Under the pieces are notes generated by a model, which saw only the letters and a list, made by a program, of their open reading frames with translations, ran no database searches and had not been told where the DNA came from. This document shows, piece after piece, positions 20,050 through 60,916 of a stretch of 64,000 nucleotides of DNA. The translations under genes and the position numbers were made by a program. The first letter of the stretch is position 1. Each line of letters opens with the position of its first letter. Source of the DNA: Brachionus manjavacas (taxonomy: Eukaryota; Rotifera; Eurotatoria; Ploima; Brachionidae); the NCBI GenBank assembly GCA_019054805.1, contig JAHQIY010000052.1:1-64000 (forward strand). The letters are read 5' to 3'.

Positions 20050-21083
20050 AAGTATAATGTCCCGAGTTTGATGCGTCTCCAAGATGAAAACAAATTGATG
20101 TTAGCTCATAAATTCTGTCATTTAAATTTGAAACTTTATATTTGCTCAAGTTTAATTCTTCTTGAAAATCAATAGAATTTGACAATTTTCTAACAGTCCC
20201 AAAATTATCTATCTTTTTTTTTTAAATAGAAATTTGATAAAAATTTGGAAAAAAAATTTGTATAAAATTAAATTACTCTAAATCTTTTGAGCATTATAAT
20301 CAAATTGTCCTTCATTGCATTTAATTTTGAACTTGAAGTAAAGGTTTGATTTGAATTGCACTGATTGCAAAACGTATCCTCAATCAATTCATCACGAATA
20401 AATATTTCCAAACAATCGTTTATTGATTTACAATTCGAATCCATTGGCAATTGTAAGCAAAGATTTGTAGAAGTGATTTGTTTTTGATGCATTGAATTTT
20501 TGCCACATTTCATTTTCTGCATTGTTTCGAATATAAAGCTTTGACTCATTAGATTATGAGTAAACTTGAAATTTTCAAAGACATCTTCTAAACGATCGGT
20601 TGATCTAAGTCCTCGTTTTCCAATCTCAATCTCAATTACACATTCATCTATGTAACCCATGAATTGTATGAGAAATTCATGAGCATCGTGCTGATTAAAT
20701 TGTGTAAAAGTCTCACTTAATTTCGACTCGTACAATTGATCGAAAAAATTTTGATACAAATTTTTAAATTCTTTTTGTTTCAGTCTTTTTGTTAAATTCA
20801 AACCTTCGTACACAAAATTAACATATGTATCAACCAAATTGTACTCGTCTTGATCATAGGCAAATTGATGTTGGTATTTGTGTTCAATAACATTTTTTAA
20901 TACCATGTCGAATGAATTAATGCATTGAACTATTGAACCGACAAAACAAGTGTTAATTAAATTTGGAATTCCTTTGCCAACAAAGGAAGAATTTCGATCG
21001 TAGTCAAAGTTTGTCAATAGTAAATTGTTTCTAATCAATTGATTGATCGAATTAATTTTGCTTCTTGTTAATTGTCTGCTCAT
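20050..21083 (-). CDS. USP (peptidase C19) N-terminal exons, unit B
   Basis: Exon 1 is 20277-21083 and exon 2 is 20050-20212 (163 bp), with a short AT-rich GT-AG intron between. The start chosen is the Met of MSRQLTRSK at 21083, shared with D and E. An upstream in-frame Met at 21110 arises only from an extra T here. The active-site Cys box is NTCFVGSIVQ, QHDAHEFLIQF follows, then the CNQCNSNQ zinc pair, IIMLKRF and the His box LGDASNSGHYT. The third catalytic region (WHYFDDE) comes from the RepHel exon after splicing. The usual first USP Cys pair is reduced to one Cys (KCGKN). The frame is intact, but the downstream RepHel exon is truncated in this unit. Confidence 0.85.
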
Positions 21084-24951: not shown

Positions 24952-27900
24952 TTAAAATGTGATCTCGGTGAAAATAGCCTGATGATCACTGAACCATGTT
25001 GAATATGGCTGTGATTTAAATTGACCAAAAGAATGTGACTTGCTCGTTAGACACCAATCCAATTGAGAAATATCCTTGAAAGTTAAACATTTGCTAAACA
25101 CGGGTGTCATGTTCAAATTGTCTCTTAGCGTATCAAGATATTTAGAATTGTTTTCTCTATTAAAGTCAATATTGAAATCACCAAAGATTACCAAAGAGTC
25201 TTGGCTGTGCAAATTTAAATTCAAAAAGGCAATCAACTCTTGAATAAACTTGTCATTGTCCATCTTTGGATGCTTGTAAAGATTTAAAAATAAACAACTG
25301 TTGAATTTCCCTTTTTAAATTTGAATAAACTCAATTCAACACATTTCGATTGATTAATGCCCGAATACTCAAACCCTGTGGATGCATTGTGTGCAACTAA
25401 TTCAAAATTGTCAACAAGTGATTTTTCCTTGCGTATTAAACATATTTGTCCATTTGAACAATTTAAATTGATTCCACTTGAATAATAAACAAGGTGATAA
25501 TTGTCAAATAATAATTTTGCTTCATTTTGTCTAAAATTTTTTCTATTGTGACATTCACTTAGAAAAATAACATCAGCTTGCTTATATCCATAATCATATT
25601 TGACATTTTCTTTGTTTGAATTAAACGATTGAATATTTTGAAACATTATTGTCAAATCACTTGTTCTCTTCAACTCAAAACCATAGTCCAAAAAAGAGTA
25701 ATGGTTTCTCATGTTAGCATTCGATCTTAGTCTATTCATTTCAATGCGAACCGGATCATTTTGTTCAAACAATTGCAATTCTTTTTCTCGTTGTTCTTTG
25801 GACAATCGTTGAACACGTGCACTCTCAATCGAAAGACTGCCATACAAATACAAACCAGTCAGCTTAGTTGCTCTACTCAATGCTACATACAACAACGATC
25901 GTTTCAAACTGTCTCCAATGAACACAGCAACACATGTATACGATTGTCCCTGTGATTTGTGTATGGTCATTGATTCACATTCAATCAAAGTAAATTGTCT
26001 CCTATCCACGCGATAATTGCCACCCGCTTTTGGTCTTTTAATTGTCTGTTGTTCGTAAACCAACGCAGTCAAATGTGGATCTATTGTTTCTTTTAGAATC
26101 AATGCATCATCTCTCATCCATTTAAGTTGATCGTTTTCATTTCGTGACAAATGACCAACATCTTTATCTGCAAATTCCAAGTACACTCGTTTAACCAATG
26201 GCTTTACGTCTGTTTTTTTCTTTGTAAAAACAATATGTTTCAAACACCCAACTGCACCATTCACTAGACCATCTTCTGTTCGCACATTTGTTGTCATCAT
26301 GTATTTGCAGTTGACTTTAAATCTCAACAATGTAGGCATTCCACATGTTTTATTCATGTCCATTTCATTTCTAAGACTTGCCACTAGGTTTTTTGCTTTA
26401 TTTGAATTTTTCTCTTTGCCTTGAGCCAAATCAATTGCTCGATTTTCAATTAAATCACCAGGCATTGATCTCAACTTGTAATCGTTGTATTCATTCACTC
26501 CTTTATTTGAATGAATAACACAAATAGCTTCTCTTGGTATTTGATCAATGAGAACAATGCGTGAATTAAACATTCTCACTTGTTCTTCACTCAAACCTAT
26601 AACACCTTTGTTTCCAAGTGTATTAAGAGCTTCAGCAAACACTGCATCGTCACGTTGTCTCATTATTTCCTTGAGTTCAACAAATTCAAACTTGTGCCAC
26701 AACAAATCACCTGCCAAAATCGAATAGCCACTCTCTCCTCTAGATCTTTCAAATATCCAACTGTCTTGCACTGGACATATTTGATTTAAATCACCAACAA
26801 CAACAATAGATATATTGCCAAATGGCTTTGAATTGTCCATTATTTGCATTAAACGCTTATTTAATTTCGAAAATAAATTGCTTCCGACCATCGATATTTC
26901 ATCAATTATTAATAATTTTACTTTTTTAAATAGCTTTCGCACTTTTGTCAATAAATTTTCTGACAATCTGTCCATATTGTTTGTATGAATTGGAAAATGG
27001 AACAATGAGTGCAAAGTTGATCCTTTAATGTTAAAAGCTGCTTTGCCAGTAAATGCTGACAAGAGAACAGTAATAGAAGTTGGATCATCGATATTGTCAC
27101 TATTTATTCTTATAAACGTTTGATATAACGACTTGATTAGATGAGACTTACCAGTGCCCGCACCACCACTAACAAAATGATAAAATGGCTCTGTTGATCG
27201 TACACAATCGATAAAATTTGACAAATACTTGTGTTGAATACGATTAAGAGACTTCATCAATGTTGCATATTCATCATTTGTTGTTCGCTTTGGCAAAATT
27301 ATCGAATCACAATCGGCATTAATCATACTTTGCAAATTACTAATTTCATCTTGAATAACAGCATGATATCCAAATTCATCTTCAATTTCTTCATTTCTCG
27401 CTTCATTTGCATTCGTCACAAGGTTTTCATTTGCTTCATTCACTCGTTCCACATAATCTTCGACCATACGTTCATAATGCTCTTGTATTTCTGTTTCCAA
27501 ATCATTTATAGCTTTATCAAACTCTTCTGCCACAACAGATTCAAAGCGTGCACGATTATTACCTATAATTGTCTTGTTGAGCTCAAATATTTCAAATGTA
27601 TCTTTTACTTCAACTTCTTTTTTTTCATTTCTCCACGGGTGAAACAACATTATTTCAACACGATAGTAATTTTCCGGATCTTTTATTCGATTATATCTTT
27701 TGTAACGCAATATTTTACACTTGTTTCTTTTTTTTACATATCCATCGTTATTTTTCAATTTAATCAATTTTGAATTACTTGCTATTTCAACAGTGTCAGA
27801 AACATCATCGTCTTCACCAGTGTTCGTTTCAACTCTTGCCAATTGTTCATTTTCAAAATAATAATTGTTGTCATCTTCGTCCAAATTTTCGTCTTCTTCT

Positions 27901-30312
27901 TCTTGAAATCGTCCAACTCGAGTCAAATCGTTTGGATCTTTTGCTCTTTCTCTTGAAAAATAGTCAAAGTAAGTGGCAAATTCGGCCAAACACATTCTTT
28001 CCATTTCAATAGGTCTATTAACATAATGCTGAAGTATGCCAGCTCGAAATATGTTTTTGGATTCAGGATTCATTATTTCCAAATAGCGATCCTCCTTAAG
28101 TATAACATTTCTTTCTTTGGAAGGAAATGTATTTACGTAAATGGTTTCACGAGATGTTCGCGACACTGGCATACTCAACAATGTATATGTACACTCTTGA
28201 GCTGATATTTCACAACAATTGTTAAACTTGTTGGCTACCTTTAACAAACGTTGTTTAACACTCAAATTTCCACGCACCACTTCCTCAACAGTATTTTTAA
28301 GTAGTCGTGACATTGAAGCATTTGATTTGAGCATGTACGCTGACACATAAGCTGCAGCACCATACGGATCAGTAATAAATTGAATGTCCATATTTGCTCT
28401 GTGACGAACATAAATGGGTTTATTGTATGGATTAACCATTATGTCATTAGATGATCTTTTTAAAAAGACTGTAGATCTTTTAATAGAACGTGAAAGTGCC
28501 CTCAAATAATCAATTTCATTTAATCCTATCATTTCTAAAAATTGTTCAAAATTAATTGAATATGATGAGTTACTTTTGAATTTTGTATTTATTTCATTCA
28601 ATTTCTCTCTTATCATTAGAAAATTTTCGTAAGCCTTGTGAAAATCGTTATCATCTTTTTCAAAGGCTCTAATATTGTTGTTTTGTCCAGAATGGGCCAT
28701 GGAAATCCATACTTGCACAAAATGTTACCATGATCATCGGTAATTTTACAGTTACTTTTGTGCACATGAACTTGATACTTCAAAGGTACCTCTTGCAAAA
28801 TACAACTACGATTCTCATAATCGTCTTCCTCAATCATATTGTTTGCTGGACACTTTGACGTTATGTATTTATCAATAAATTCGGCACAATTTTTGACCAA
28901 TTCACTTTTGTCTTGCAAATCTTCATCATATTTTAGAGCATCTATATTCCATGTTATCATATGAATGTGAGGACTTCCACGATTTTGAAATTCCACACGC
29001 CAAAAGTAATCAAACACAGGATTTTCTTTAAAGGGTCCATTCAAATTGAAAATGTATTTGAGCAATTCGCCCATTCTATTTTCAAAATATCTTGCCACAG
29101 TGATTGGATCACGACTTACCATTTCAATACGCTTGTCTCTTGTTATGTTAGTCAATTCATCATCTGAAAGATATTTATTGTCGAGCGTTTTCGACAATAC
29201 TTGAATCAATTCATTCCAATCTATTTCTGCCGGACTCAATGTAATAAAAAACGACGGACAGCCCAATTGACGAATCATTGCATTTATTTCCATTTTTTTC
29301 CACTCCCAATACTGTGGACTTGATCTTATTGTACGCAAAAACATTTGTGCTTCATTTCGAACTATTAAATCATTTATTTTTTGTTTATTTAGAGCATCAC
29401 GTGCGGTCAGCGATTCAATTTCTTGGGTTTTTCTCAAGCATGTGTCTATGGCTGCATTTAGTTTTTTGCTCACCAATTTCTTGTACGAATAAAACAATTT
29501 ATTTATGTCATTGGCACAACGTCTGTCAAATCGACGAAATTCCGACTTGCATCTCATTCCGTATTTGATTTGTAATTTTGGTTGAAACTTTTCACCACCA
29601 TATATTTTAATAAATGTCAACTCTTCAGCATCTTTATCTGAAAGAATTGATCTTGGCTGAATACCTTCGCCTGGCGCTATTGTCTTTACCAAATCGTTGT
29701 TGTCAAACAAAAGAGTAGGTTGTGCATTTTGAAATTGTTCAACATAATCAGCGTCTTCATTTCTTTTTTCTAACCCTTGTAAATTTGGATAAAGTCTTTT
29801 AAATTACCCGAAGCCAATAATCTATCTTCATTATTTACAATGAAATCTTCAGTCAAATCCACATTGTCAAAATCTTTATGTTTCTCGAACCATTCCGTTG
29901 ATAATTTTATGTTATTCTCTTTGAAAAGGGGCCTATTAAGCAAATATCTAATTGCTTTTAAAATTAAATATGGTCGTATTGAATCGAACATATAAGGTTT
30001 TGTATAGTCCATTCTCCTTTTTAATACCAACTGAATTGTTTCGGATTGTTCGAATGAACGCGGAAGAATTTCCAATGTTTTTTCTGTATCAATTGGTACA
30101 TTTACTACATTACCAGATATTTTTTGTTGATGATCCCAATTAACCAATTCTTTGATACGCATAAATGGAAGTCTTGGCGAACACAAGCGTTCTTCAACTT
30201 CATTTAAATGTTTTAATTCGTCTGGAACAACTGGGAATTGTAATCCATTTGACAATGCGAGATTTGGTATTTTGTTTTCTCTCACATATTTAGAACAAGT
30301 AACACAAATCCA
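24952..30312 (-). pseudogene. RepHel-EN of unit C, 5'-deleted and frame-broken
   Basis: It runs from the CVTC part of the zinc-finger-like block (30312) through the Helitron N-terminal domain, HUH Rep, YVSAY, and PIF1-type helicase to the EEP nuclease. Frame breaks occur near 25287, 28655 and 29800, each one base shorter in an A/T run than unit D. Unlike B and D, the helicase is unbroken between Walker A and Walker B (six T near 26930). The poly(A) signal AATAAA is at 24911-24906. There are no USP exons, so no fusion product is possible. Confidence 0.9.
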
Positions 30313-31039: not shown

Positions 31040-31815
31040 AGCATAAATATTCTCATAAATAAATTCTAAAATCTTAATCCAAAAAAATAATTAATTGTTT
31101 GCGTTAAACCACTTATTGGTACAGGGTTCCGGTTAGGGAATTGCTCTAATTGATAGAAAAAAAAAATTAGTGAGAACGGGGTCCGGGGCGGAGCCCTGGT
31201 TTAGGGTTCCGGGTATGCAGTAAGCTAGAGAACCATTTGTAAAAATTACTATTATTTTTGAATGTTAAATAGTCTAAAAAATTATTAGTAATTATTTTAG
31301 CATAAATATTCTCATAAATAAATTCTAAAATCTTAATCCAAAAAAATAATTAATTGTTTGCGTTAAACCACTTATTGGTACAGGGTTCCGGTTAGGGAAT
31401 TGCTCTAATTGATAGAAAAAAATTAGTGAGAACGGGGTCCGGGGCGGAGCCCTGGTTTAGGAGTTCCGGGTATGCAGTAAGCTAGAGAACCATTTGTAAA
31501 AATTACTAGTATTTTTGAATGTTAAATAGTCTAAAAAATTATTAGTAATTATTTTAGCATAAATATTCTCATAAATAAATTCTAAAATCTTAATCCAAAA
31601 AATAATTAATTGTTTGCGTTAAACCACTTATTGGTACAGGGTTCCGGTTAGGGAATTGCTCTAATTGATAGAAAAAAAATTAGTGAGAACGGGGTCCGGG
31701 GCGGAGCCCTGGTTTAGGGTTCCGGGTATGCAGTAAGCTAGAGAACCATTTGTAAAAATTACTATTATTTTTGAATGTTAAATAATCTAAAAAATTATTA
31801 GTAATTATTTTAGCG
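31040..31815 (-). repeat. Minisatellite, three ~258-bp copies (unit C 5' end)
   Basis: All three copies are of the AATAAATTC/TACAGGG/CATTTGT variant. The array ends TTTTAGCG immediately before the terminal GGGTTGCC of unit D. Confidence 0.95.
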
Positions 31816-32046
31816 GGGTTGCCTAGATTTTTCGCTGATATATGAATATCAAGAAAAAAAAAATCTAGGTATTACGTTTGTCGTGTCCGTCCGTCCGTCC
31901 GTCCGTCCGTCCGTCCGTCCGTCCGTCCGTCCGTCTGTGGACACATTTAACCCTAGTTTTTAGATGTTAACCCTAGTTTTAAAAATGACAAAAAATATGT
32001 CGATCGATAGCATTGAATACATAAAAGGCGCGAAAAATCTAGGCAA
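31816..32046 (-). repeat. Unit D 3' terminus: hairpin, 17-bp inverted repeat, (CCGT)n
   Basis: The arms are 31819-31835 and 32030-32046. The CCGT tract has about 12 units flanked by GTGTCC/GGACAC. Two AACCCTAG repeats follow. The minus-strand end reads ...CTAGGCAACCC. Confidence 0.8.
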
Positions 32047-32128
32047 TCTAATTTTTTAAAAATTAAACTTTAAATCGATCAATCACTAAAACAAAAATAT
32101 TAATCAAAAAGATTAAAGTAATAAAAAA

Positions 32129-32134
32129 TTTATT
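32129..32134 (-). terminator. Poly(A) signal AATAAA of the RepHel gene, unit D
   Basis: AATAAA on the minus strand lies about 40 bases after the RepHel stop at 32174. The same signal is at the equivalent place in units B, C, E and F (60873-60878 in F). Confidence 0.6.
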
Positions 32135-32173
32135 GACAACAAAAGTTGAACTAAATAAGAAAAAAAAAGAGAA

Positions 32174-35100
32174 TTAAAATGTGATCTCGGTGAAAATAGC
32201 CTGATGATCACTGAACCATGTTGAATATGGCTGTGATTTAAATTGACCAAAAGAATGTGACTTGCTCGTTAGACACCAATCCAATTGAGAAATATCCTTG
32301 AAAGTTAAACATTTGCTAAACACGGGTGTCATGTTCAAATTGTCTCTTAGCGTATCAAGATATTTAGAATTGTTTTCTCTATTAAAGTCAATATTGAAAT
32401 CACCAAAGATTACCAAAGAGTCTTGGCTGTGCAAATTTAAATTCAAAAAGGCAATCAACTCTTGAATAAACTTGTCATTGTCCATCTTTGGATGCTTGTA
32501 AAGATTTAAAAAATAAACAACTGTTGAATTTCCCTTTTTAAATTTGAATAAACTCAATTCAACACATTTCGATTGATTAATGCCCGAATACTCAAACCCT
32601 GTGGATGCATTGTGTGCAACTAATTCAAAATTGTCAACAAGTGATTTTTCCTTGCGTATTAAACATATTTGTCCATTTGAACAATTTAAATTGATTCCAC
32701 TTGAATAATAAACAAGGTGATAATTGTCAAATAATAATTTTGCTTCATTTTGTCTAAAATTTTTTCTATTGTGACATTCACTTAGAAAAATAACATCAGC
32801 TTGCTTATATCCATAATCATATTTGACATTTTCTTTGTTTGAATTAAACGATTGAATATTTTGAAACATTATTGTCAAATCACTTGTTCTCTTCAACTCA
32901 AAACCATAGTCCAAAAAAGAGTAATGGTTTCTCATGTTAGCATTCGATCTTAGTCTATTCATTTCAATGCGAACCGGATCATTTTGTTCAAACAATTGCA
33001 ATTCTTTTTCTCGTTGTTCTTTGGACAATCGTTGAACACGTGCACTCTCAATCGAAAGACTGCCATACAAATACAAACCAGTCAGCTTAGTTGCTCTACT
33101 CAATGCTACATACAACAACGATCGTTTCAAACTGTCTCCAATGAACACAGCAACACATGTATACGATTGTCCCTGTGATTTGTGTATGGTCATTGATTCA
33201 CATTCAATCAAAGTAAATTGTCTCCTATCCACGCGATAATTGCCACCCGCTTTTGGTCTTTTAATTGTCTGTTGTTCGTAAACCAACGCAGTCAAATGTG
33301 GATCTATTGTTTCTTTTAGAATCAATGCATCATCTCTCATCCATTTAAGTTGATCGTTTTCATTTCGTGACAAATGACCAACATCTTTATCTGCAAATTC
33401 CAAGTACACTCGTTTAACCAATGGCTTTACGTCTGTTTTTTTCTTTGTAAAAACAATATGTTTCAAACACCCAACTGCACCATTCACTAGACCATCTTCT
33501 GTTCGCACATTTGTTGTCATCATGTATTTGCAGTTGACTTTAAATCTCAACAATGTAGGCATTCCACATGTTTTATTCATGTCCATTTCATTTCTAAGAC
33601 TTGCCACTAGGTTTTTTGCTTTATTTGAATTTTTCTCTTTGCCTTGAGCCAAATCAATTGCTCGATTTTCAATTAAATCACCAGGCATTGATCTCAACTT
33701 GTAATCGTTGTATTCATTCACTCCTTTATTTGAATGAATAACACAAATAGCTTCTCTTGGTATTTGATCAATGAGAACAATGCGTGAATTAAACATTCTC
33801 ACTTGTTCTTCACTCAAACCTATAACACCTTTGTTTCCAAGTGTATTAAGAGCTTCAGCAAACACTGCATCGTCACGTTGTCTCATTATTTCCTTGAGTT
33901 CAACAAATTCAAACTTGTGCCACAACAAATCACCTGCCAAAATCGAATAGCCACTCTCTCCTCTAGATCTTTCAAATATCCAACTGTCTTGCACTGGACA
34001 TATTTGATTTAAATCACCAACAACAACAATAGATATATTGCCAAATGGCTTTGAATTGTCCATTATTTGCATTAAACGCTTATTTAATTTCGAAAATAAA
34101 TTGCTTCCGACCATCGATATTTCATCAATTATTAATAATTTTACTTTTTAAATAGCTTTCGCACTTTTGTCAATAAATTTTCTGACAATCTGTCCATATT
34201 GTTTGTATGAATTGGAAAATGGAACAATGAGTGCAAAGTTGATCCTTTAATGTTAAAAGCTGCTTTGCCAGTAAATGCTGACAAGAGAACAGTAATAGAA
34301 GTTGGATCATCGATATTGTCACTATTTATTCTTATAAACGTTTGATATAACGACTTGATTAGATGAGACTTACCAGTGCCCGCACCACCACTAACAAAAT
34401 GATAAAATGGCTCTGTTGATCGTACACAATCGATAAAATTTGACAAATACTTGTGTTGAATACGATTAAGAGACTTCATCAATGTTGCATATTCATCATT
34501 TGTTGTTCGCTTTGGCAAAATTATCGAATCACAATCGGCATTAATCATACTTTGCAAATTACTAATTTCATCTTGAATAACAGCATGATATCCAAATTCA
34601 TCTTCAATTTCTTCATTTCTCGCTTCATTTGCATTCGTCACAAGGTTTTCATTTGCTTCATTCACTCGTTCCACATAATCTTCGACCATACGTTCATAAT
34701 GCTCTTGTATTTCTGTTTCCAAATCATTTATAGCTTTATCAAACTCTTCTGCCACAACAGATTCAAAGCGTGCACGATTATTACCTATAATTGTCTTGTT
34801 GAGCTCAAATATTTCAAATGTATCTTTTACTTCAACTTCTTTTTTTTCATTTCTCCACGGGTGAAACAACATTATTTCAACACGATAGTAATTTTCCGGA
34901 TCTTTTATTCGATTATATCTTTTGTAACGCAATATTTTACACTTGTTTCTTTTTTTTACATATCCATCGTTATTTTTCAATTTAATCAATTTTGAATTAC
35001 TTGCTATTTCAACAGTGTCAGAAACATCATCGTCTTCACCAGTGTTCGTTTCAACTCTTGCCAATTGTTCATTTTCAAAATAATAATTGTTGTCATCTTC

Positions 35101-38100
35101 GTCCAAATTTTCGTCTTCTTCTTCTTGAAATCGTCCAACTCGAGTCAAATCGTTTGGATCTTTTGCTCTTTCTCTTGAAAAATAGTCAAAGTAAGTGGCA
35201 AATTCGGCCAAACACATTCTTTCCATTTCAATAGGTCTATTAACATAATGCTGAAGTATGCCAGCTCGAAATATGTTTTTGGATTCAGGATTCATTATTT
35301 CCAAATAGCGATCCTCCTTAAGTATAACATTTCTTTCTTTGGAAGGAAATGTATTTACGTAAATGGTTTCACGAGATGTTCGCGACACTGGCATACTCAA
35401 CAATGTATATGTACACTCTTGAGCTGATATTTCACAACAATTGTTAAACTTGTTGGCTACCTTTAACAAACGTTGTTTAACACTCAAATTTCCACGCACC
35501 ACTTCCTCAACAGTATTTTTAAGTAGTCGTGACATTGAAGCATTTGATTTGAGCATGTACGCTGACACATAAGCTGCAGCACCATACGGATCAGTAATAA
35601 ATTGAATGTCCATATTTGCTCTGTGACGAACATAAATGGGTTTATTGTATGGATTAACCATTATGTCATTAGATGATCTTTTTAAAAAGACTGTAGATCT
35701 TTTAATAGAACGTGAAAGTGCCCTCAAATAATCAATTTCATTTAATCCTATCATTTCTAAAAATTGTTCAAAATTAATTGAATATGATGAGTTACTTTTG
35801 AATTTTGTATTTATTTCATTCAATTTCTCTCTTATCATTAGAAAATTTTCGTAAGCCTTGTGAAAATCGTTATCATCTTTTTTCAAAGGCTCTAATATTG
35901 TTGTTTTGTCCAGAATGGGCCATGGAAATCCATACTTGCACAAAATGTTACCATGATCATCGGTAATTTTACAGTTACTTTTGTGCACATGAACTTGATA
36001 CTTCAAAGGTACCTCTTGCAAAATACAACTACGATTCTCATAATCGTCTTCCTCAATCATATTGTTTGCTGGACACTTTGACGTTATGTATTTATCAATA
36101 AATTCGGCACAATTTTTGACCAATTCACTTTTGTCTTGCAAATCTTCATCATATTTTAGAGCATCTATATTCCATGTTATCATATGAATGTGAGGACTTC
36201 CACGATTTTGAAATTCCACACGCCAAAAGTAATCAAACACAGGATTTTCTTTAAAGGGTCCATTCAAATTGAAAATGTATTTGAGCAATTCGCCCATTCT
36301 ATTTTCAAAATATCTTGCCACAGTGATTGGATCACGACTTACCATTTCAATACGCTTGTCTCTTGTTATGTTAGTCAATTCATCATCTGAAAGATATTTA
36401 TTGTCGAGCGTTTTCGACAATACTTGAATCAATTCATTCCAATCTATTTCTGCCGGACTCAATGTAATAAAAAACGACGGACAGCCCAATTGACGAATCA
36501 TTGCATTTATTTCCATTTTTTTCCACTCCCAATACTGTGGACTTGATCTTATTGTACGCAAAAACATTTGTGCTTCATTTCGAACTATTAAATCATTTAT
36601 TTTTTGTTTATTTAGAGCATCACGTGCGGTCAGCGATTCAATTTCTTGGGTTTTTCTCAAGCATGTGTCTATGGCTGCATTTAGTTTTTTGCTCACCAAT
36701 TTCTTGTACGAATAAAACAATTTATTTATGTCATTGGCACAACGTCTGTCAAATCGACGAAATTCCGACTTGCATCTCATTCCGTATTTGATTTGTAATT
36801 TTGGTTGAAACTTTTCACCACCATATATTTTAATAAATGTCAACTCTTCAGCATCTTTATCTGAAAGAATTGATCTTGGCTGAATACCTTCGCCTGGCGC
36901 TATTGTCTTTACCAAATCGTTGTTGTCAAACAAAAGAGTAGGTTGTGCATTTTGAAATTGTTCAACATAATCAGCGTCTTCATTTCTTTTTTCTAACCCT
37001 TGTAAATTTGGATAAAGTCTTTTTAAATTACCCGAAGCCAATAATCTATCTTCATTATTTACAATGAAATCTTCAGTCAAATCCACATTGTCAAAATCTT
37101 TATGTTTCTCGAACCATTCCGTTGATAATTTTATGTTATTCTCTTTGAAAAGGGGCCTATTAAGCAAATATCTAATTGCTTTTAAAATTAAATATGGTCG
37201 TATTGAATCGAACATATAAGGTTTTGTATAGTCCATTCTCCTTTTTAATACCAACTGAATTGTTTCGGATTGTTCAAATGAACGCGGAAGAATTTCCAAT
37301 GTTTTTTCTGTATCAATTGGTACATTTACTACATTACCAGATATTTTTTGTTGATGATCCCAATTAACCAATTCTTTGATACGCATAAATGGAAGTCTTG
37401 GCGAACACAAGCGTTCTTCAACTTCATTTAAATGTTTTAATTCGTCTGGAACAACTGGGAATTGTAATCCATTTGACAATGCGAGATTTGGTATTTTGTT
37501 TTCTCTCACATATTTAGAACAAGTAACACAAATCCAATTAAAACCACATTCCGATTTTATATCTACATTAAATATTTGATTGAACAAACTGTTATTTCTA
37601 CTAAGTGTGAACTTATTTACTGTTCTCTTAAAAAAAAGACCACCACAACAAACACAAGCAAACGACGGACCATTTTGAATTCCTTCTTCATAAACATCTA
37701 TCAAAAATTTAATATTTGATCTTTGATTTCGTTTACTAATTGAATTTCTAGCTTGTTCTTCAATCCTAAAAGTTTCATTTGATCTTCTATTTCTGTGTTG
37801 TTCGGTATTTGACAATTGTTCTTGCATTCTGTATTCAATATTTTTTCTTCTTAATGCATGCTCGATTGTGTTTGTTATTTGTTCATCGTTTCGATATATG
37901 GAATTACTTCTTCTTAATTGATGTTCTTCAGTGTTTCTTAGCTGTTCTTCTTCTCTGTATTGTGGATCGAGTCTTCTTAGTTGATGTTCTTCAGTGTTTC
38001 TTAGCTGTTCTTCTTCTCTGTATTGTGGATCGAGTCTTCTTAGTTGATGTTCTTCAGTGTTTCTTAGCTGTTCTTCTTCTCTGTATTGTGGATCGAGTCT

Positions 38101-38840
38101 TCTTAGTTGATGTTCTTCAGTGTTTCTTAGCTGTTCTTCTTCTCTGTATTGTGGATCTGTTCTTCTCATTTGATGTTCTTGAGTGTTTCTTGATTTCTCA
38201 AAATTTCTATATGCTTGATCTTGTCTTCGTAATCTATGCTCTTGACTATTTCTGATTTGTTCATTGATCCTATATTCGACATCGTTAATTCTTTTATTTT
38301 TTTTAAGAAAAGTGTTTTTTAATTGTTCGTATTGTTTTTCGTACAAATCTTCACGTTTAACTTGTTTACTTATTTTTTGTATTGATTTTTCGACATTTCT
38401 ATAATTTTCATCTTCTCTTTTCTTTCTCATCCATTCTCTCTTGTATTCTTTTCGTTTATCATGCTGTGATATATTTTCTGGAGTTTGACTAATTTCTTGC
38501 AATCCAAACTCCCTATCAGATTCTATGATTTTCATTTCAACACTTGTTTTTTGGATAGAAAATGACATTTTTTCATCCTCTAATGATTGAAAACTCATAT
38601 TAGAATCATGTCTTTGTTTTCTATTTGCTTGCGCACTAGCTGAATTATCCGGAATAACCGGCCTTACAACATTGACACGTCGAATTTGATTTTGGGATCT
38701 TCTATTCAATTTGTAAAATAAAAGGTAACATTGATTTGTACTCATATCAATTGTTTGTTTAAATTGATTTAGGCTCGGAAAAACTTTAATATTTTCGTCG
38801 TCAAAATAATGCCAATTATTAGATTTTGAACGAACCAATG
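32174..38840 (-). CDS. RepHel-EN main exon of the USP-RepHel polyprotein, unit D
   Basis: This 6,667-bp terminal exon is spliced to the USP exons at 39229-40259. In order it has: end of the USP fold (WHYFDDE, LFYKL, 38700-38820); charged 21-residue repeats (37900-38165); CVCC...CVTC block (37520-37670); Helitron N-terminal domain with FFITLSPAEIDW; HUH motif SPHIHMITW (about 36175-36205); tyrosine pair YVSAY (35553-35580); PIF1-type helicase with GGAGTGKS (34367-34390), LLIIDEISMVG, GDLNQICPV, IHKSQGQ and YVALSRATK; and EEP nuclease with SECH, GDFN and WFSDH (32174-32900). Expected roles are nicking/joining, unwinding and nuclease functions in rolling-circle transposition. One base is missing in a T run at about 34145-34150 (five T; six in C and E). 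Exon lengths (807+163+6667, plus one) divide by three, giving about 2,545 residues, so this is the only net break. The MVRSK methionine is not the start. Confidence 0.93.
37900..38165 (-). repeat. 63-bp coding tandem repeat (unit D RepHel)
   Basis: Four near-identical copies encode a 21-residue unit around LDPQYREEEQLRNTEEHQLR. Equivalent blocks occur at about 16510-16770, 18720-18980 and 53620-53870. The near identity of the copies suggests recent slippage or conversion. Confidence 0.9.
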
Positions 38841-39228
38841 CTTTGAAAAATAATAATTAATTAAGTTTTTAAAATATTTAAATTAAAAATAGGTCAAAAT
38901 AAAAGATCCAATTAAAAGAATTTTATTTAATTTGACTAATTACAAAAAAATATGAATTAAAATTAATAAGCTAACCCTATACTTCTATTAAGCCGAAATC
39001 CCTAAACCGGGGCTTCGCCCCAGACCCCATTAAGACTTCAATTTTGTTAAAATAAAATCAAGCCTAAAATAAACCCTAATTTGTCAAAGCTCAAGACGTC
39101 TGGCGACGTCTCTCGCTTAGCCAAACTATGGTTTATTTTAGGCTTGATCTAATTAAACAGGAGTTATTTTTTTAAATTGTTTTAATTGGAATATTTTCTT
39201 TTACTGATATTGTTAAAAGCTTACTTAC
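38841..39228 (-). other. USP-RepHel intron of unit D with 92-bp inverted repeat
   Basis: 388 bp, donor GTAAGTAAGC and acceptor TTTTCAAAG, interrupting a codon after its first base. It holds 19-bp perfect inverted arms (39057-39075 and 39130-39148) around a loop with two GACGTC palindromes. It also holds a GGGGC-TTC-GCCCC hairpin near 39009-39022, related in inverted orientation to the minisatellite core. Confidence 0.85.
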
Positions 39229-40259
39229 AAGTATAATGTCCCGAGTTTGATGCGTCTCCAAGATGAAAACAAATTGATGTTAGCTCATAAATTCTGTCAT
39301 TTAAATTTGAAACTTTATATTTGCTCAAGTTTAATTCTTCTTGAAAATCAATAGAATTTGACAATTTTCTAACAGTCCCAAAATTATCTATCTTTTTTTT
39401 AAATAGAAATTTGATAAAAATTTGGAAAAAAATTTGTATAAAATTAAATTACTCTAAATCTTTTGAGCATTATAATCAAATTGTCCTTCATTGCATTTAA
39501 TTTTGAACTTGAAGTAAAGGTTTGATTTGAATTGCACTGATTGCAAAACGTATCCTCAATCAATTCATCACGAATAAATATTTCCAAACAATCGTTTATT
39601 GATTTACAATTCGAATCCATTGGCAATTGTAAGCAAAGATTTGTAGAAGTGATTTGTTTTTGATGCATTGAATTTTTGCCACATTTCATTTTCTGCATTG
39701 TTTCGAATATAAAGCTTTGACTCATTAGATTATGAGTAAACTTGAAATTTTCAAAGACATCTTCTAAACGATCGGTTGATCTAAGTCCTCGTTTTCCAAT
39801 CTCAATCTCAATTACACATTCATCTATGTAACCCATGAATTGTATGAGAAATTCATGAGCATCGTGCTGATTAAATTGTGTAAAAGTCTCACTTAATTTC
39901 GACTCGTACAATTGATCGAAAAAATTTTGATACAAATTTTTAAATTCTTTTTGTTTCAGTCTTTTTGTTAAATTCAAACCTTCGTACACAAAATTAACAT
40001 ATGTATCAACCAAATTGTACTCGTCTTGATCATAGGCAAATTGATGTTGGTATTTGTGTTCAATAACATTTTTTAATACCATGTCGAATGAATTAATGCA
40101 TTGAACTATTGAACCGACAAAACAAGTGTTAATTAAATTTGGAATTCCTTTGCCAACAAAGGAAGAATTTCGATCGTAGTCAAAGTTTGTCAATAGTAAA
40201 TTGTTTCTAAACAATTGATTGATCGAATTAATTTTGCTTCTTGTTAATTGTCTGCTCAT
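39229..40259 (-). CDS. USP (peptidase C19) N-terminal exons of the USP-RepHel polyprotein, unit D
   Basis: The start is Met at 40259 (MSRQLTRSK). Exon 1 is 39453-40259 (269 codons), followed by a 61-bp intron and exon 2 at 39229-39391 (163 bp). The domains match a compact USP: Cys box with NTCF, QHDAHEFL, CNQC zinc pair, IIMLKRF and His box GDASNSGHYT. After splicing the frame continues S-L-V-R-S-K into WHYFDDE, the normal end of a USP active site. USPs cleave ubiquitin from proteins. In the element it might protect the transposase or counter host degradation, which is inference. Other animal Helitrons are known to carry an OTU protease; this is an unrelated deubiquitinase fold in a similar role. 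Both exons are intact. Confidence 0.88.
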
Positions 40260-40405: not shown

Positions 40406-42339
40406 TTAGGCATATTCAACATTGCCTTTTGAATAATTGCCATATTTTACTTTGCTAAAATAAAAGTAAATCAAATAAATGGTAATAGTTACAAGAAATA
40501 AAATTCCAAAAAATATTAAAATTGTTGAAAAAATTTCTTATCAGATCATTAATATTTCCAATTTTGTTTGCAAACCATTGCACAATTTTTCCCATTGAAT
40601 TGGTTTCGATCAAATTTCCATTTACGTCCAATTTTGAAAGCTCTTTTGGCGAGTCCATTACAATAAATGGCGAATTAAAAAATAACGATTCATCTTCCAA
40701 AATATGTATGTTCTCAATAAAGTCCGTTCCGTTCAACAAGTACGCGTGATGATCGTATAAATTTTTTAAATCGCCTGTTTTCAATTTAAAATCAGTAGAA
40801 TGGTGAGTTAAATTTGAAATGCGAATAGTATTCTGTGACAATCTTTCCACTAGAACTGCTTTTTTATTTGACATTCTTAACATTATTGATTGATCACATT
40901 CGACAGTTTTTTTTGAATATTGGGTTATTATGTTATTTGGCCGTATGTAACCTGGTCTGAAGTTTTTTGAATTTTGAATACGATATTCAATTGGCAAATG
41001 TTTGGTGCATTCTTTTGAATTAACTTTATTTTTGATTCGAATTTTGTCGATTTTCGAACAAAGTGGTATAAATACTTGGCCATTGTTTATGTAAAAAAGG
41101 AAATTTTTATTATCTTTTAAAACAAAATAAAAAATTCAAATTATTAAATAAAAAAGTAATTTAATATTTATTACCTATATGCGTTAGATTCAAGAACGTA
41201 TCTTCTAGATGAAGATTTTGTTTAATTGAATTGATAAAAATGCTACAATGCAATTGTTTAATCATTTCCAACATAACAAATGTTTTATAGTCTTGTTCAG
41301 AAACTAAAAGCCTATTTTTGTCTTTCTCTGTAAAATGACTTAATGAGTACTTTGATGTGGGAAGGTTTTCAAGCTTATCCTTAATGACTTGGCTATTAGC
41401 GTGTAAGATTTGATACATCCCATCATGCGCCTGGTGGAAAACCCCAGGGTAGAAAGAAAGGTAGAGTCCCTCTGATGTTTTCCAAAAATCAAATCCACAA
41501 TCTTTAACATAACCAGTCACCATAAAAAGATAATTTACTTTTGACGAATAAAGAACTAATCTTTTAATCCCATTATTCACTTTATCCATTTTAATCATAT
41601 CATCAAAATGTAATAATCTTTCATATTGACAATTGTGAATATCCTTTCTATCCCATATTATTGTACTTTGAGGCATTTTACAAAATTCATCTTCGGCATA
41701 GCATGGTTCAATTGAGTTGTGAAAAATATTTTGATTTTTATTTTGAGCGAATACAATCTTTTCATTGAAATGACATTCGTAAAAAGTTTTTTCAATTGTT
41801 CCAAAATAAAATGGATATTTTTCGACAACATCTTGTGAAAACGAGCAAGTGTTATTGTTAGTACATAGCATATTGAATTTTTTATTCGAAAAGCCACACT
41901 GTTTTTCCTTAAACATTTGAACACAATCATGTTTAGATAAATAAATTTTTTCTAAATCATTTTGAACATATTTATTGAAGAAAATATCTCTACTAAATTT
42001 ATATTTTCGCACTAACATTCTACATTCGATTCCTTTTGTCTCTAAAATAAAATTATGCTTGGAAAAAACGTATCCATGTGAACCTATGGAATGAATGTCA
42101 CCTTCTAACCCACCTGAATTCTGCTCTTCTTTACCTTTCAAAGCTTTTATTGAAAACTCATGCACAGATTTACTAAAAGACTCCATAAAACAATCATTCT
42201 CTAAATTTAGCATATTCAAATGGTTGTTAACGATACACATTTTGAAATCGCCCAAGATTTGTTCATAAAGTTGACTTTTGTTTTTTACAACAATTATTGC
42301 CATTAAAATCAAAGCTTGGGTAAAATAAAGTCTAACCAT
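40406..42339 (-). CDS. Envelope-like type I membrane glycoprotein, unit D
   Basis: Exon 1 (41175-42339) starts with a signal-peptide-like N terminus and carries about 13 Cys and several N-glycosylation sites. The intron is 61 bp (41114-41174). Exon 2 starts at 41113 and is open to 40455 in the ectodomain frame. The hydrophobic transmembrane segment with a short tail ending at 40406 lies in another frame after a T run at 40528-40533, so this copy ends in an altered C terminus unless the run length is an assembly error. The likely role is receptor binding/membrane fusion, by analogy with envelope genes of retrovirus-like elements. Virus-family assignment (chuvirus-like or other) is unproven. 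It precedes the USP start by about 150 bp. Confidence 0.65.
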
Positions 42340-42740
42340 TTTGAAGAAAATTTAAAATGAAACTTTCTCTTAGGAAAAATTCAGCCTTTTAAATTGGTTT
42401 TTCTAATATATATTATATAATATTATTTTTACTTATAAAAAAACTATTTCAAATAACCAAAATTATGGAATGGTTATTAATGGAATTGTATGGTAAAGCA
42501 AATACAATCATTATTTAAAAAATTCGTCAACTTAATTTTTTTTATCGATTTTTTTCCTAGCAACTAAAATTAATTTTTAGAAATTTTTATTAATTATTTT
42601 GCTGAAATATTTTAAGTTAAAAATTGGGTTTTTTTTCAAATTAAATAAAGAAAAAACAATTTGAAAAGCAATTTGTGTGCTTCATAGAATTTCATTTATA
42701 AATTTCGAAAAAAATGGGTCGCAAAAATAAAAAAGATTTT
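42340..42740 (-). promoter_or_regulatory. Leader/putative promoter of the envelope-like gene, unit D
   Basis: AT-rich and gene-free. A TATA-like stretch at about 42405-42425 lies 65-85 bases before the ATG at 42339 (minus strand). It carries the TTATTTAAA..CGTCAACTT variant shared with unit B. Confidence 0.45.
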
Positions 42741-45700
42741 AGCATAAATATTCTCATAAATTAATTCTAAAATCTTAATCCAAAAAATAATTAATTGTTT
42801 GCGTTAAACCACTTATTGGTACAAGGTTCCGGTTAGGGAATTGCTCTAATTGATAGAAAAAAATTAGTGAGAACGGGGTCCGGGGCGGAGCCCTGGTTTA
42901 GGGTTCCGGTATGCAGTAAGCTAGAGAACCATTAGTAAAAATTACTATTATTTTTGAATGTTAAATAATCTAAAAATTATTAGTAATTATTTTAGCATAA
43001 ATATTCTCATAAATTAATTCTAAAATCTTAATCCAAAAAAATAATTAATTGTTTGCGTTAAACCACTTATTGGTACAAGGTTCCGGTTAGGGAATTGCTC
43101 TAATTGATAGAAAAAAAAAATTAGTGAGAACGGGGTCCGGGGCGGAGCCCTGGTTTAGGGTTCCAGGTATGCAGTAAGCTAGAGAACCATTAGTAAAAAT
43201 TACTATTATTTTTGAATGTTAAATAATCTAAAAAATTATTAGTAATTATTTTAGCATAAATATTCTCATAAATTAATTCTAAAATCTTAATCCAAAAAAA
43301 TAATTAATTGTTTGCGTTAAACCACTTATTGGTACAAGGTTCCGGTTAGGGAATTGCTCTAATTGATAGAAAAAAATTAGTGAGAACGGGGTCCGGGGCG
43401 GAGCCCTGGTTTAGGGTTCCGGGTATGCAGTAAGCTAGAGAACCATTAGTAAAAATTACTATTATTTTTGAATGTTAAATAATCTAAAAAATTATTAGTA
43501 ATTATTTTAGCATAAATATTCTCATAAATTAATTCTAAAATCTTAATCCAAAAAATAATTAATTGTTTGCGTTAAACCACTTATTGGTACAAGGTTCCGG
43601 TTAGGGAATTGCTCTAATTGATAGAAAAAAAAATTAGTGAGAACGGGGTCCGGGGCGGAGCCCTGGTTTAGGGTTCCGGGTATGCAGTAAGCTAGAGAAC
43701 CATTAGTAAAAATTACTATTATTTTTGAATGTTAAATAATCTAAAAAATTATTAGTAATTATTTTAGCATAAATATTCTCATAAATTAATTCTAAAATCT
43801 TAATCCAAAAAAATAATTAATTGTTTGCGTTAAACCACTTATTGGTACAAGGTTCCGGTTAGGGAATTGCTCTAATTGATAGAAAAAAATTAGTGAGAAC
43901 GGGGTCCGGGGCGGAGCCCTGGTTTAGGGTTCCGGGTATGCAGTAAGCTAGAGAACCATTAGTAAAAATTACTATTATTTTTGAATGTTAAATAATCTAA
44001 AAAATTATTAGTAATTATTTTAGCATAAATATTCTCATAAATTAATTCTAAAATCTTAATCCAAAAAAATAATTAATTGTTTGCGTTAAACCACTTATTG
44101 GTACAAGGTTCCGGTTAGGGAATTGCTCTAATTGATAGAAAAAAAATTAGTGAGACCGGGGTCCGGGGCGGAGCCCTGGTTTAGGGTTCCGGGTATGCAG
44201 TAAGCTAGAGAACCATTAGTAAAAATTACTATTATTTTTGAATGTTAAATAATCTAAAAAATTATTAGTAATTATTTTAGCATAAATATTCTCATAAATT
44301 AATTCTAAAATCTTAATCCAAAAAAATAATTAATTGTTTGCGTTAAACCACTTATTGGTACAAGGTTCCGGTTAGGGAATTGCTCTAATTGATAGAAAAA
44401 AATTAGTGAGAACGGGGTCCGGGGCGGAGCCCTGGTTTAGGGTTCCGGGTATGCAGTAAGCTAGAGAACCATTAGTAAAAATTACTATTATTTTTGAATG
44501 TTAAATAATCTAAAAAATTATTAGTAATTATTTTAGCATAAATATTCTCATAAATTAATTCTAAAATCTTAATCCAAAAAATTAATTAATTGTTTGCGTT
44601 AAACCACTTATTGGTACAAGGTTCCGGTTAGGGAATTGCTCTAATTGATAGAAAAAAATTAGTGAGAACGGGGTCCGGGGCGGAGCCCTGGTTTAGGGTT
44701 CCGGGTATGCAGTAAGCTAGAGAACCATTAGTAAAAATTACTATTATTTTTGAATGTTAAATAATCTAAAAAATTATTAGTAATTATTTTAGCATAAATA
44801 TTCTCATAAATTAATTCTAAAATCTTAATCCAAAAAATTAATTAATTGTTTGCGTTAAACCACTTATTGGTACAAGGTTCCGGTTAGGGAATTGCTCTAA
44901 TTGATAGAAAAAAAAATTAGTGAGAACGGGGTCCGGGGCGGAGCCCTGGTTTAGGGTTCCGGGTATGCAGTAAGCTAGAGAACCATTAGTAAAAATTACT
45001 ATTATTTTTGAATGTTAAATAATCTAAAAAATTATTAGTAATTATTTTAGCATAAATATTCTCATAAATTAATTCTAAAATCTTAATCCAAAAAATAATT
45101 AATTGTTTGCGTTAAACCACTTATTGGTACAAGGTTCCGGTTAGGGAATTGCTCTAATTGATAGAAAAAAAATTAGTGAGAACGGGGTCCGGGGCGGAGC
45201 CCTGGTTTAGGGTTCCGGGTATGCAGTAAGCTAGAGAACCATTAGTAAAAATTACTATTATTTTTGAATGTTAAATAATCTAAAAAATTATTAGTAATTA
45301 TTTTAGCATAAATATTCTCATAAATTAATTCTAAAATCTTAATCCAAAAAATTAATTAATTGTTTGCGTTAAACCACTTATTGGTACAGGGTTCCGGTTA
45401 GGGAATTGCTCTAATTGATAGAAAAAAAAAATTAGTGAGAACGGGGTCCGGGGCGGAGCCCTGGTTTAGGGTTCCGGGTATGCAGTAAGCTAGAGAACCA
45501 TTAGTAAAAATTACTATTATTTTTGAATGTTAAATAATCTAAAAAATTATTAGTAATTATTTTAGCATAAATATTCTCATAAATTAATTCTAAAATCTTA
45601 ATCCAAAAAAATAATTAATTGTTTGCGTTAAACCACTTATTGGTACAAGGTTCCGGTTAGGGAATTGCTCTAATTGATAGAAAAAAAAATTAGTGAGAAC

Positions 45701-47537
45701 GGGGTCCGGGGCGGAGCCCTGGTTTAGGGTTCCGGGTATGCAGTAAGCTAGAGAACCATTAGTAAAAATTACTATTATTTTTGAATGTTAAATAATCTAA
45801 AAAATTATTAGTAATTATTTTAGCATAAATATTCTCATAAATTAATTCTAAAATCTTAATCCAAAAAAATAATTAATTGTTTGCGTTAAACCACTTATTG
45901 GTACAGGGTTCCGGTTAGGGAATTGCTCTAATTGATAGAAAAAAAATTAGTGAGAACGGGGTCCGGGGCGGAGCCCTGGTTTAGGGTTCCGGGTATGCAG
46001 TAAGCTAGAGAACCATTAGTAAAAATTACTATTATTTTTGAATGTTAAATAATCTAAAAAATTATTAGTAATTATTTTAGCATAAATATTCTCATAAATT
46101 AATTCTAAAATCTTAATCCAAAAAAATAATTAATTGTTTGCGTTAAACCACTTATTGGTACAAGGTTCCGGTTAGGGAATTGCTCTAATTGATAGAAAAA
46201 AAAATTAGTGAGAACGGGGTCCGGGGCGGAGCCCTGGTTTAGGGTTCCGGGTATGCAGTAAGCTAGAGAACCATTAGTAAAAATTACTATTATTTTTGAA
46301 TGTTAAATAATCTAAAAAATTATTAGTAATTATTTTAGCATAAATATTCTCATAAATTAATTCTAAAATCTTAATCCAAAAAATTAATTAATTGTTTGCG
46401 TTAAACCACTTATTGGTACAAGGTTCCGGTTAGGGAATTGCTCTAATTGATAGAAAAAAATTAGTGAGAACGGGGTCCGGGGCGGAGCCCTGGTTTAGGG
46501 TTCCGGGTATGCAGTAAGCTAGAGAACCATTAGTAAAAATTACTATTATTTTTGAATGTTAAATAATCTAAAAAATTATTAGTAATTATTTTAGCATAAA
46601 TATTCTCATAAATTAATTCTAAAATCTTAATCCAAAAAAATAATTAATTGTTTGCGTTAAACCACTTATTGGTACAAGGTTCCGGTTAGGGAATTGCTCT
46701 AATTGATAGAAAAAAATTAGTGAGAACGGGGTCCGGGGCGGAGCCCTGGTTTAGGGTTCCGGGTATGCAGTAAGCTAGAGAACCATTAGTAAAAATTACT
46801 ATTATTTTTGAATGTTAAATAATCTAAAAATTATTAGTAATTATTTTAGCATAAATATTCTCATAAATTAATTCTAAAATCTTAATCCAAAAAAATAATT
46901 AATTGTTTGCGTTAAACCACTTATTGGTACAAGGTTCCGGTTAGGGAATTGCTCTAATTGATAGAAAAAAAATTAGTGAGAACGGGGTCCGGGGCGGAGC
47001 CCTGGTTTAGGGTTCCGGGTATGCAGTAAGCTAGAGAACCATTAGTAAAAATTACTATTATTTTTGAATGTTAAATAATCTAAAAAATTATTAGTAATTA
47101 TTTTAGCATAAATATTCTCATAAATTAATTCTAAAATCTTAATCCAAAAAAATAATTAATTGTTTGCGTTAAACCACTTATTGGTACAAGGTTCCGGTTA
47201 GGGAATTGCTCTAATTGATAGAAAAAAAATTAGTGAGAACGGGGTCCGGGGCGGAGCCCTGGTTTAGGGTTCCGGGTATGCAGTAAGCTAGAGAACCATT
47301 AGTAAAAATTACTATTATTTTTGAATGTTAAATAATCTAAAAAATTATTAGTAATTATTTTAGCATAAATATTCTCATAAATTAATTCTAAAATCTTAAT
47401 CCAAAAAAATAATTAATTGTTTGCGTTAAACCACTTATTGGTACAAGGTTCCGGTTAGGGAATTGCTCTAATTGATAGAAAAAAAAATTAGTGAGAACGG
47501 GGTCCGGGGCGGAGCCCTGGTTTAGGGTTCCGGGTAT
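42741..47537 (-). repeat. Minisatellite, ~18.7 copies of ~257 bp (unit D 5' end)
   Basis: There are eighteen full copies and a partial one of about 177 bp, cut just after GGGTTCCGGGTAT where unit E starts. Copies are nearly identical, mostly of the AATTAATTC/TACAAGG/CATTAGT type; two carry TACAGGG (near 45387 and 45905). It is the longest array here and the copy number may be collapsed or expanded by assembly. Confidence 0.95.
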
Positions 47538-47749
47538 GGGTTGCCTAGATTTTTCGCTGATATATGAATATCAAGAAAAAAATCTAGGTATTACGTTTGT
47601 CGTGTCCGTCCGTCCGTCCGTCCGTCCGTCCGTCCGTCTGTGGACACATTTAACCCTAGTTTTTAGATGTTAACCCTAGTTTTAAAAATGACAAAAAATA
47701 TGTCGATCGATAGCATTGAATACATAAAAGGCGCGAAAAATCTAGGCAA
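47538..47749 (-). repeat. Unit E 3' terminus: hairpin, 17-bp inverted repeat, (CCGT)n
   Basis: The arms are 47541-47557 and 47733-47749. The CCGT tract has about eight units and the A run in the hairpin is shorter than in the neighbours. Confidence 0.8.
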
Positions 47750-60563: not shown

Positions 60564-60790
60564 GGGTTGCCTAGATTTTTCGCTGATATATGAATATCAA
60601 GAAAAAAAAAATCTAGGTATTACGTTTGTCGTGTCCGTCCGTCCGTCCGTCCGTCCGTCCGTCCGTCCGTCCGTCCGTCTGTGGACACATCTAACCCTAG
60701 TTTTTAGATGTTTACCCTAGTTTTAAAAATGACAAAAAATATGTCGATCGATAGCATTGAATACATAAAAGGCGCGAAAAATCTAGGCAA
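60564..60790 (-). repeat. Unit F 3' terminus: hairpin, 17-bp inverted repeat, (CCGT)n
   Basis: The arms are 60567-60583 and 60774-60790. The CCGT tract has about 11 units. One base differs in the AACCCTAG duplicate (TTTACCCTAG). Confidence 0.8.
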
Positions 60791-60916
60791 TCTAATTTTT
60801 TAAAAATTAAACTTTAAATCGATCAATCACTAAAACAAAAATATTAATCAAAAAGATTAAAGTAATAAAAAATTTATTGACAACAAAAGTATGAACTAAA
60901 AAAGAAAAAAAGAGAA

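Follow-up and report, generated by a model that had tools for sequence, protein, structure and literature searches.

A Helentron-type transposon family of Brachionus manjavacas whose main gene very probably joins a ubiquitin-specific protease to a Rep-helicase-endonuclease

The window analyzed here (bases 1–64000 of contig C52, which has 120,400 bases, in the 114-Mb, 61-contig genome of the rotifer Brachionus manjavacas) contains units of a Helentron-type rolling-circle transposon that lie head to tail on the minus strand, are mostly near-identical and are separated by a satellite of ~256 bp. The main gene of this family very probably encodes a single protein in which a ubiquitin-specific protease (USP) is joined to a Rep-helicase-endonuclease by way of two introns. 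In unit D, the unit under study (minus strand, 40259–32174), removal of the two introns would give one protein of ~2,540 residues comprising an N-terminal USP, a repeat-rich linker, a zinc-type motif with DUF6570, an HUH Rep, a PIF1-like helicase and a C-terminal AP-type endonuclease. The putative polyprotein of ~2,545 residues proposed in a preliminary description of this DNA agrees in length with two entries from Brachionus calyciflorus (2506 and 2529 aa). Other contigs of the genome are denoted in the same way as C52, and genome-wide counts are lower bounds. The parts of the gene in unit D are as follows.

40259–39453, minus strand: exon 1, with ATG at 40259, the Cys box NTCF (Cys codon 40124–40122) and a QHDAHEF box
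39452–39392, minus strand: intron 1, GT-AG, phase 0; same site in unit A and in the C18 copy
39391–39229, minus strand: exon 2, with the His box SGHYT (His codon 39238–39236)
39228–38841, minus strand: intron 2, GTAAGT...AAAG, phase 1, 388 bp
38840–34141, minus strand: exon 3, with the USP C-terminal part, 21-residue repeats, CxCC motif, DUF6570, HUH Rep and the N part of the helicase
34147–32174, minus strand: gene end, with the C part of the helicase and an Exo_endo_phos endonuclease (PF05970, E 2.6e-15; PF13538, E 2.5e-8; PF03372, E 7e-7); last stop 32174–32176

The catalytic Cys, His and Asp motifs of the USP (NTCF, SGHYT and WHYFDDE) are found in this order in exons 1, 2 and 3, the last of them within the USP C-terminal part (WHYFDDEN...CYLLFYKL, 38840–38704) at the start of exon 3. 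Asn is also accepted at the third catalytic site of USPs. The preliminary description had placed the Cys and His boxes in two upstream exons and the third region at the start of the Rep-helicase (RepHel) exon, and its coordinates agree with those obtained here. Exons 1, 2 and 3 as far as the run-length break sum to 5670 nucleotides, or 3 × 1890, a divisibility by three that had been claimed before, and a stop is met solely at that end. The break, which makes the stop, separates the open reading frames (ORFs) 38856–34141 and 34147–32174. The joint after 34147 is open in units C and E (ORFs 25284–28724 and 47878–50550), with other breaks in both, and in the C18 relative one open frame of 2143 aa covers exon 3. 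The Rep is of the HUH type with two tyrosines (PF14214, E 2.2e-26; HxH at 36192–36184, YxxxY at 35571–35557), the helicase is PIF1-like (PF05970, E 2.1e-9 and 2.6e-15 on either side of the break), and the C-terminal endonuclease is of the AP type (PF03372, with GDFN and SDH motifs). Five unit D frames scanned against Pfam showed neither OTU (PF02338) nor VTD (PF04843) at E values up to 1. Exon 3 carries in-frame 63-bp tandem repeats (37846–38228), and the charged 21-residue repeats that they encode lie between USP and CxCC motif; unit A has its own version of them at 5771–6168.

Exon 1 alone matches positions 2–159 of the UCH profile (PF00443; 39.9 bits, E 5e-10) and, among PDB chains, USP8 and USP15 (E 1e-9 to 1e-8, best 1.1e-9). 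Once spliced, the chain matches positions 2–254 of 254 (109.4 bits, E 3e-31), an end-to-end match that upholds the earlier view that GT-AG splicing restores the end of the USP. To avoid circularity, an independent profile of 350 positions was made solely from database proteins, namely the USP portions of five of them, with no window sequences. It was run over contig C52 and the C18 locus, which yielded 2362 ORF pieces of 25 residues or more, and the 29 matches at i-E < 1 all fall within these transposon units. The 10 exon 1 matches end at profile position 247, except for one fragment of a broken copy that covers 22–70; the 9 exon 2 matches end at 299–301 and start at 234–251 (272 in the broken unit A), the early starts arising because the frames read back into the intron; and the 10 exon 3 matches run from 298 or 300 to 345. 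The three exons together leave no gap in this profile. The score is 88.7 bits for exon 1, 122.2 for exons 1 and 2 and 156.2 for the spliced chain; with intron 1 kept it is 90.2 bits. Chance ORFs were rejected as an explanation on the basis of this independent profile.

Both intron sites of unit D are shared by the diverged unit A and by the copy on C18 (C18:1314–1324 kb). In unit A, intron 2 (6777–6709, 69 bp) had already been reported at the same site and phase, and intron 1 was located as well, at 7028–6949. Of the phase 1 splicing proposed earlier, the assignment stands for intron 2 but not for intron 1, which is phase 0; these phases are found in D and C18, and unit A, in which the exon 2 frame is broken, agrees as judged by the frame beside each joint. 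The extra part of intron 2 in unit D (388 vs 69 bp in unit A) contains an inverted repeat as well as a stretch rich in GC that is like one in the satellite. Seventeen copies of exon 2 are present in the loci examined: all 17 have GTAAGT at or beside the exon 2 end and AAAG ahead of the exon, the frame is open in 15, and the joint to exon 3 is exact in 13. Amino-acid identity between D and C18 is 54% in exon 1, 50% in exon 2 and 44% in the USP tail, with pN/pS of 0.274/0.766, 0.332/0.870 and 0.334/0.469, respectively, and in exon 3 the dN/dS is 0.16 over 1504 codons. Decayed and better-kept copies stand side by side in the family. These comparisons indicate that the USP-RepHel gene is under purifying selection, and its RNA is presumably spliced as drawn.

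A search with the RepHel region gave 142 relatives, of which 120 were listed, and domain counts were taken from the precomputed Pfam domains of these 120. At least five of those listed (P0001, P0002, P0015, P0030 and P0036) have UCH and Helitron_like_N in one protein, so the fusion is not confined to this genome; VTD is present in 18 and OTU in 9. P0001 (2506 aa) and P0002 (2529 aa) are the B. calyciflorus entries, and P0015 (2723 aa) and P0036 (920 aa, with a partial RepHel) each retain all three catalytic boxes (Cys, His and Asp) on a single chain. Eight of the 120 match a USP-tail pattern ([FY][DN]D ... YLLFY-like), each time upstream of the RepHel region, namely in the five UCH proteins and in P0003, P0019 and P0028, which carry the tail at their very start, as would be expected if the gene caller had missed an intron. 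P0010 begins with six residues and then YLLFY, and was treated by eye as having the USP tail in the tree described below. USP and RepHel as consistently separate genes were not seen in the proteins examined, most of which do not extend far enough at their N-terminal end to decide the matter, and a protein search with the USP part of B. calyciflorus returned no match besides itself among 1241 candidates. The in-frame USP-RepHel reading of the preliminary description is thus borne out by splice sites in near and diverged copies, by the independent profile, by selection and by fusion proteins elsewhere.

A quick maximum-likelihood tree of the RepHel region was made with 118 rows, comprising D, C18 and the 116 of 120 listed relatives that passed a coverage filter (P0068, P0095, P0107 and P0108 were dropped). 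The seven USP rows and four USP-tail rows all fall inside one set of 39 rows with an SH-aLRT of 100, in which there are no VTD or OTU rows. The remaining 28 rows of this set have 0–417 residues ahead of the aligned region, as against 507–661 in the five UCH rows, so that a whole USP with its linker could show in none of them.

Several points weigh against the USP-RepHel reading. Units A, D and E each contain frame breaks, and intactness over all exons is established for no single copy. The acceptor AG of intron 1 is lost in C18 and its donor in one C4 copy (C4:3063), and in the USP tail taken alone (43 codons) constraint is weak, at 0.60. As given, P0002 is without the His box and P0030 without the Cys box, and P0006, P0007, P0017 and P0021 extend upstream to the same extent as the USP-tail rows (282–363 residues), yet have no tail. 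On labels as given, the tree requires 5 changes for the USP, where shuffling gave a mean of 6.9 and reached so low a count in 2 of 500 cases, and 4 more for the USP tail. With these change counts and the four tail-less rows, loss or repeated gain is possible, and a single acquisition of the USP in the clade is plausible, not proved. For a USP-RepHel homologue, the AlphaFold prediction was too poor for use (pLDDT 37), and hence the domain is identified as a USP from sequence only.

The same exons might be divided between two genes if a USP transcript stopped ahead of exon 3 and RepHel began at a methionine within exon 3. Such methionines are present at codons 32, 81 and 91, and an unspliced exon 1 runs just two codons into intron 1 before a stop; a separate USP, however, would be left without its WHYFDDE...YLLFYKL end, profile positions 302–345 being supplied by exon 3 only, and with fused proteins known elsewhere this arrangement is quite unlikely. 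Retention of introns would likewise truncate the USP (to 271 residues with intron 1 kept) and remove its His and Asp, making the fused form minor and the USP a dead ubiquitin-binding decoy, but the His and Asp/Asn boxes are retained in D, C18, P0001, P0015 and P0036, and we regard this as very improbable. That the exons are functionless pieces of a host USP gene captured by a Helitron is scarcely credible. Helitrons do capture gene fragments (passages of PMC6431247), and of at least 90 UCH matches in the genome only part lie within these units; the domain is nevertheless whole, its three catalytic boxes are kept, pN is well under pS in exons 1 and 2, and the USP stands at the same place in B. 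calyciflorus and other relatives. A host gene fragment was accordingly rejected on the grounds of selection and of homologues outside this genome.

As part of a single USP-RepHel protein, the predicted USP would be an active ubiquitin hydrolase that acts in cis, shielding the Rep-helicase or bound host factors from ubiquitin-dependent removal during transposition. USPs normally require ubiquitin-like substrates, which makes it unlikely that the domain is mainly a self-processing protease that frees the Rep-helicase from a polyprotein and not a deubiquitinase. The repeat-rich linker behind the USP would suit such a protease, and viral deubiquitinases often process polyproteins as well (passages of PMC9741609). 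According to the same passages, zebrafish Helentrons have VTD domains that cleave ubiquitin chains, are active in vitro and have been proposed to guard transposition proteins from degradation, and OTU occurs besides or instead of VTD in Helentrons. By analogy, the simplest reading would be that the USP deubiquitinates in this family and has taken the job proposed for the VTD domains of other Helentrons.

The VTD Helentrons (zebrafish DrT1/DrT2, in passages of PMC9741609) resemble the present element in having RepHel, a C-terminal AP endonuclease and a cysteine-protease deubiquitinase in one protein. They differ in that the deubiquitinase is of an unrelated class (PF04843, not USP), its activity has been demonstrated, and VTD rows lie outside the USP clade. 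OTU Helentrons, as they appear in parts of PMC6431247 and PMC4067079, also carry, as an accessory, a cysteine protease that belongs to the deubiquitinases, but of the OTU fold, present in 9 of the 120 listed relatives and in none of the USP clade. Going by the passages of PMC9741609, the USP adds a third deubiquitinase class to the OTU and VTD classes of Helentrons; the preliminary description was right to see an unrelated deubiquitinase of the USP class beside OTU, but this class is not the second, VTD being already known. Close counterparts are the B. calyciflorus entries P0001 and P0002, named 'ATP-dependent DNA helicase', which have UCH, DUF6570, Helitron_like_N and PIF1 in one protein (and, in P0001, the endonuclease domain too) but are 52% identical in the RepHel region. 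Among the papers listed in searches of open-licence literature, none was found to describe a Helitron with a USP or with a fusion glycoprotein. The presence of three unrelated deubiquitinase folds (OTU, VTD and USP) in RepHel proteins, with the USP in its own clade, speaks for ubiquitin-dependent control as a genuine hindrance to Helentrons. With three enzymes for one supposed job, it becomes testable what the host ubiquitinates and whether the deubiquitinase matters for transposition.

Upstream of the USP-RepHel gene, unit D contains a glycoprotein-like gene in two parts, beyond which lies the satellite.

41164–42339, minus strand: first part, with a signal-peptide-like start by eye and a weak match to PF00974 (E 0.019)
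40455–41135, minus strand: second part, probably separated from the first by a short intron; no Pfam match; the homologues P0128 and P0130 continue past the first part
42736–47538: ~256-bp satellite, gene-5' flank of unit D

The predicted structure of the homologue P0130 appears to have the class III fold of viral fusion proteins such as herpesvirus gB and rhabdovirus G. The likeness to these glycoproteins is marginal at the level of sequence, P0127 scoring 24.2 bits with PF00974 against a cut-off of 22 and P0128, P0129 and P0130 falling under the cut-off, and fusion by the present protein is putative. A hydrophobic C-terminal stretch is seen by eye in P0128, P0130 and one unit A frame, and the second part in unit D ends without a clear one. 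The gene is retained in a diverged copy. P0001 and P0130 are each on a contig of 27,800 bases, and the glycoprotein gene and USP-RepHel are thus perhaps on one contig in another rotifer. Viral contigs gave 16 pattern stretches for the glycoprotein and 2 for RepHel, none of which was confirmed as a relative, and a profile from the glycoprotein alignment gave one weak, unrelated row (E 0.22) among PDB sequences. If functional, the linked glycoprotein-like gene would offer DNA transposons a route for horizontal spread. Outside the arrays there are seven far relatives of the first part with 23–30% identity (C26:578601, C32:176803, C6:1302305, C3:1259940, C10:2205675, C37:363863 and C11:583196), one of them in a frame of 1501 residues.

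The gene-3' end of unit D, which adjoins telomere repeats in some copies, is the following.

31815–32161: inverted 16–17-bp repeats, palindromes and (GTCC)n at 31885–31935

These elements are grouped in the terminal 350 bp, and a second end was not found past the satellite. On the strand opposite the genes the region resembles a whole short HINE lying within the element's end, with both inverted copies at one end. The constant end of the units is GCGAAAAATCTAGGCA, of which 28 exact copies are present in the loci examined (imperfect copies being missed by this count), each followed by ACC. Six of the 28 continue into CCCTAA-type repeats (C52:10467, C1:1798341, C1:1816649 and C19:38051, 13647 and 6284), C19:38051 and C19:13647 looking like one mirrored pair. 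In 21, ACCC, ACCCC or ACCCT is followed by the satellite of the next unit, at one of five start positions, and the remaining one (C18:1324234) runs into other sequence. The outermost unit of C52 passes at its other, ragged end directly from satellite into terminal TTAGGG-type repeats (C52:119510). Read on the G-rich strand, the constant end is GGGT-TGCCTAGATTTTTCGC, followed by the inverted repeat and (GTCC)n, the same order as in the HINE left end (passages of PMC7492417). The telomere joint on the plus strand is GGGT/TGCC, which would be compatible with the TT of GGGTTA as an insertion site.

According to parts of PMC4067079 and PMC7492417, the non-autonomous Helentrons DINE-1 and HINE share with these units a (GTCC)n-type microsatellite, subterminal inverted repeats, a palindrome and satellite-like central repeats. 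Here, in contrast, the inverted pair lies inside the last 350 bp, the left-to-right order of HINE is found on the strand opposite the genes, and the neighbor can be a telomere repeat. Helitron-like Pif1 elements are also present at the chromosome ends of Oscheius tipulae, in 11 of 12 extensions (passages of PMC8022731); this is a nematode, and the passages on its subtelomeric helitrons mention neither a USP nor a glycoprotein.

In a search with the terminal 347 bp, 40 of 186 candidates were scored; 35 were no farther than ~60 kb from a contig end (C52 as a whole measuring just 120 kb), 4 were on C50 and C57, and 1 was internal (C1:1.798 Mb). The genes are mostly on the minus strand at right ends and on the plus strand at left ends, although C19 and C4 hold mirrored pieces as well. 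The starts of C4 and C19 are without telomere repeats, which counts against a simple telomere picture, and not every array end seen is therefore a chromosome end. The Rep may attach the constant end to the telomere overhang at its 3'-OH, so that the other element end would stay ragged and be capped by telomerase; a constant end on the GGGT(T) of the G-rich strand together with a ragged, cappable other end is what would be expected of such joining. As a rival, unequal recombination between satellites could have made the tandem copies, a view favored by the single satellite start position that 14 of the 21 satellite junctions share. Purely 5'-truncated, retroelement-like arrays were not adopted as an explanation, the short units described below retaining satellite and common end. 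One C19 unit begins inside intron 2, next to telomere repeats, and with short units that have both ends it follows that both kinds occur. The telomere-joined, mostly one-way arrays may represent a DNA transposon that extends chromosome ends. It is a tentative and rather doubtful proposal that the family is a rolling-circle transposon with a virus-like kit, consisting of USP-Rep-helicase-endonuclease and a class III fusion glycoprotein, which could move between cells or animals like enveloped retroelements and also builds chromosome ends. The glycoprotein-like gene and the telomere-joining arrays, both absent from the preliminary description, may matter more than the USP fusion.

The USP exons of the other units in the window are as follows.

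55156–55962, minus strand: unit E, near-identical to D, exon 1; exon 2 at 54932–55094, exon 3 from 54541
20277–21083, minus strand: unit B, near-identical to D, exon 1; exon 2 at 20050–20212, exon 3 from 19658
7029–7835, minus strand: unit A, diverged, exon 1
6778–6948, minus strand: unit A, exon 2, frame broken
6545–6708, minus strand: unit A, USP tail at the start of exon 3

Units are mirrored near the contig starts in C4:1–30000 and C19:1–40000, which lack telomere repeats at these starts; the mirroring reflects either real palindromes or assembly folding. Short, non-autonomous tandem units made up of satellite, the endonuclease region's final 370 bp and the common end are found at 60563–61274 in the window, at C18:1324–1333 kb and at C28:836–845 kb.

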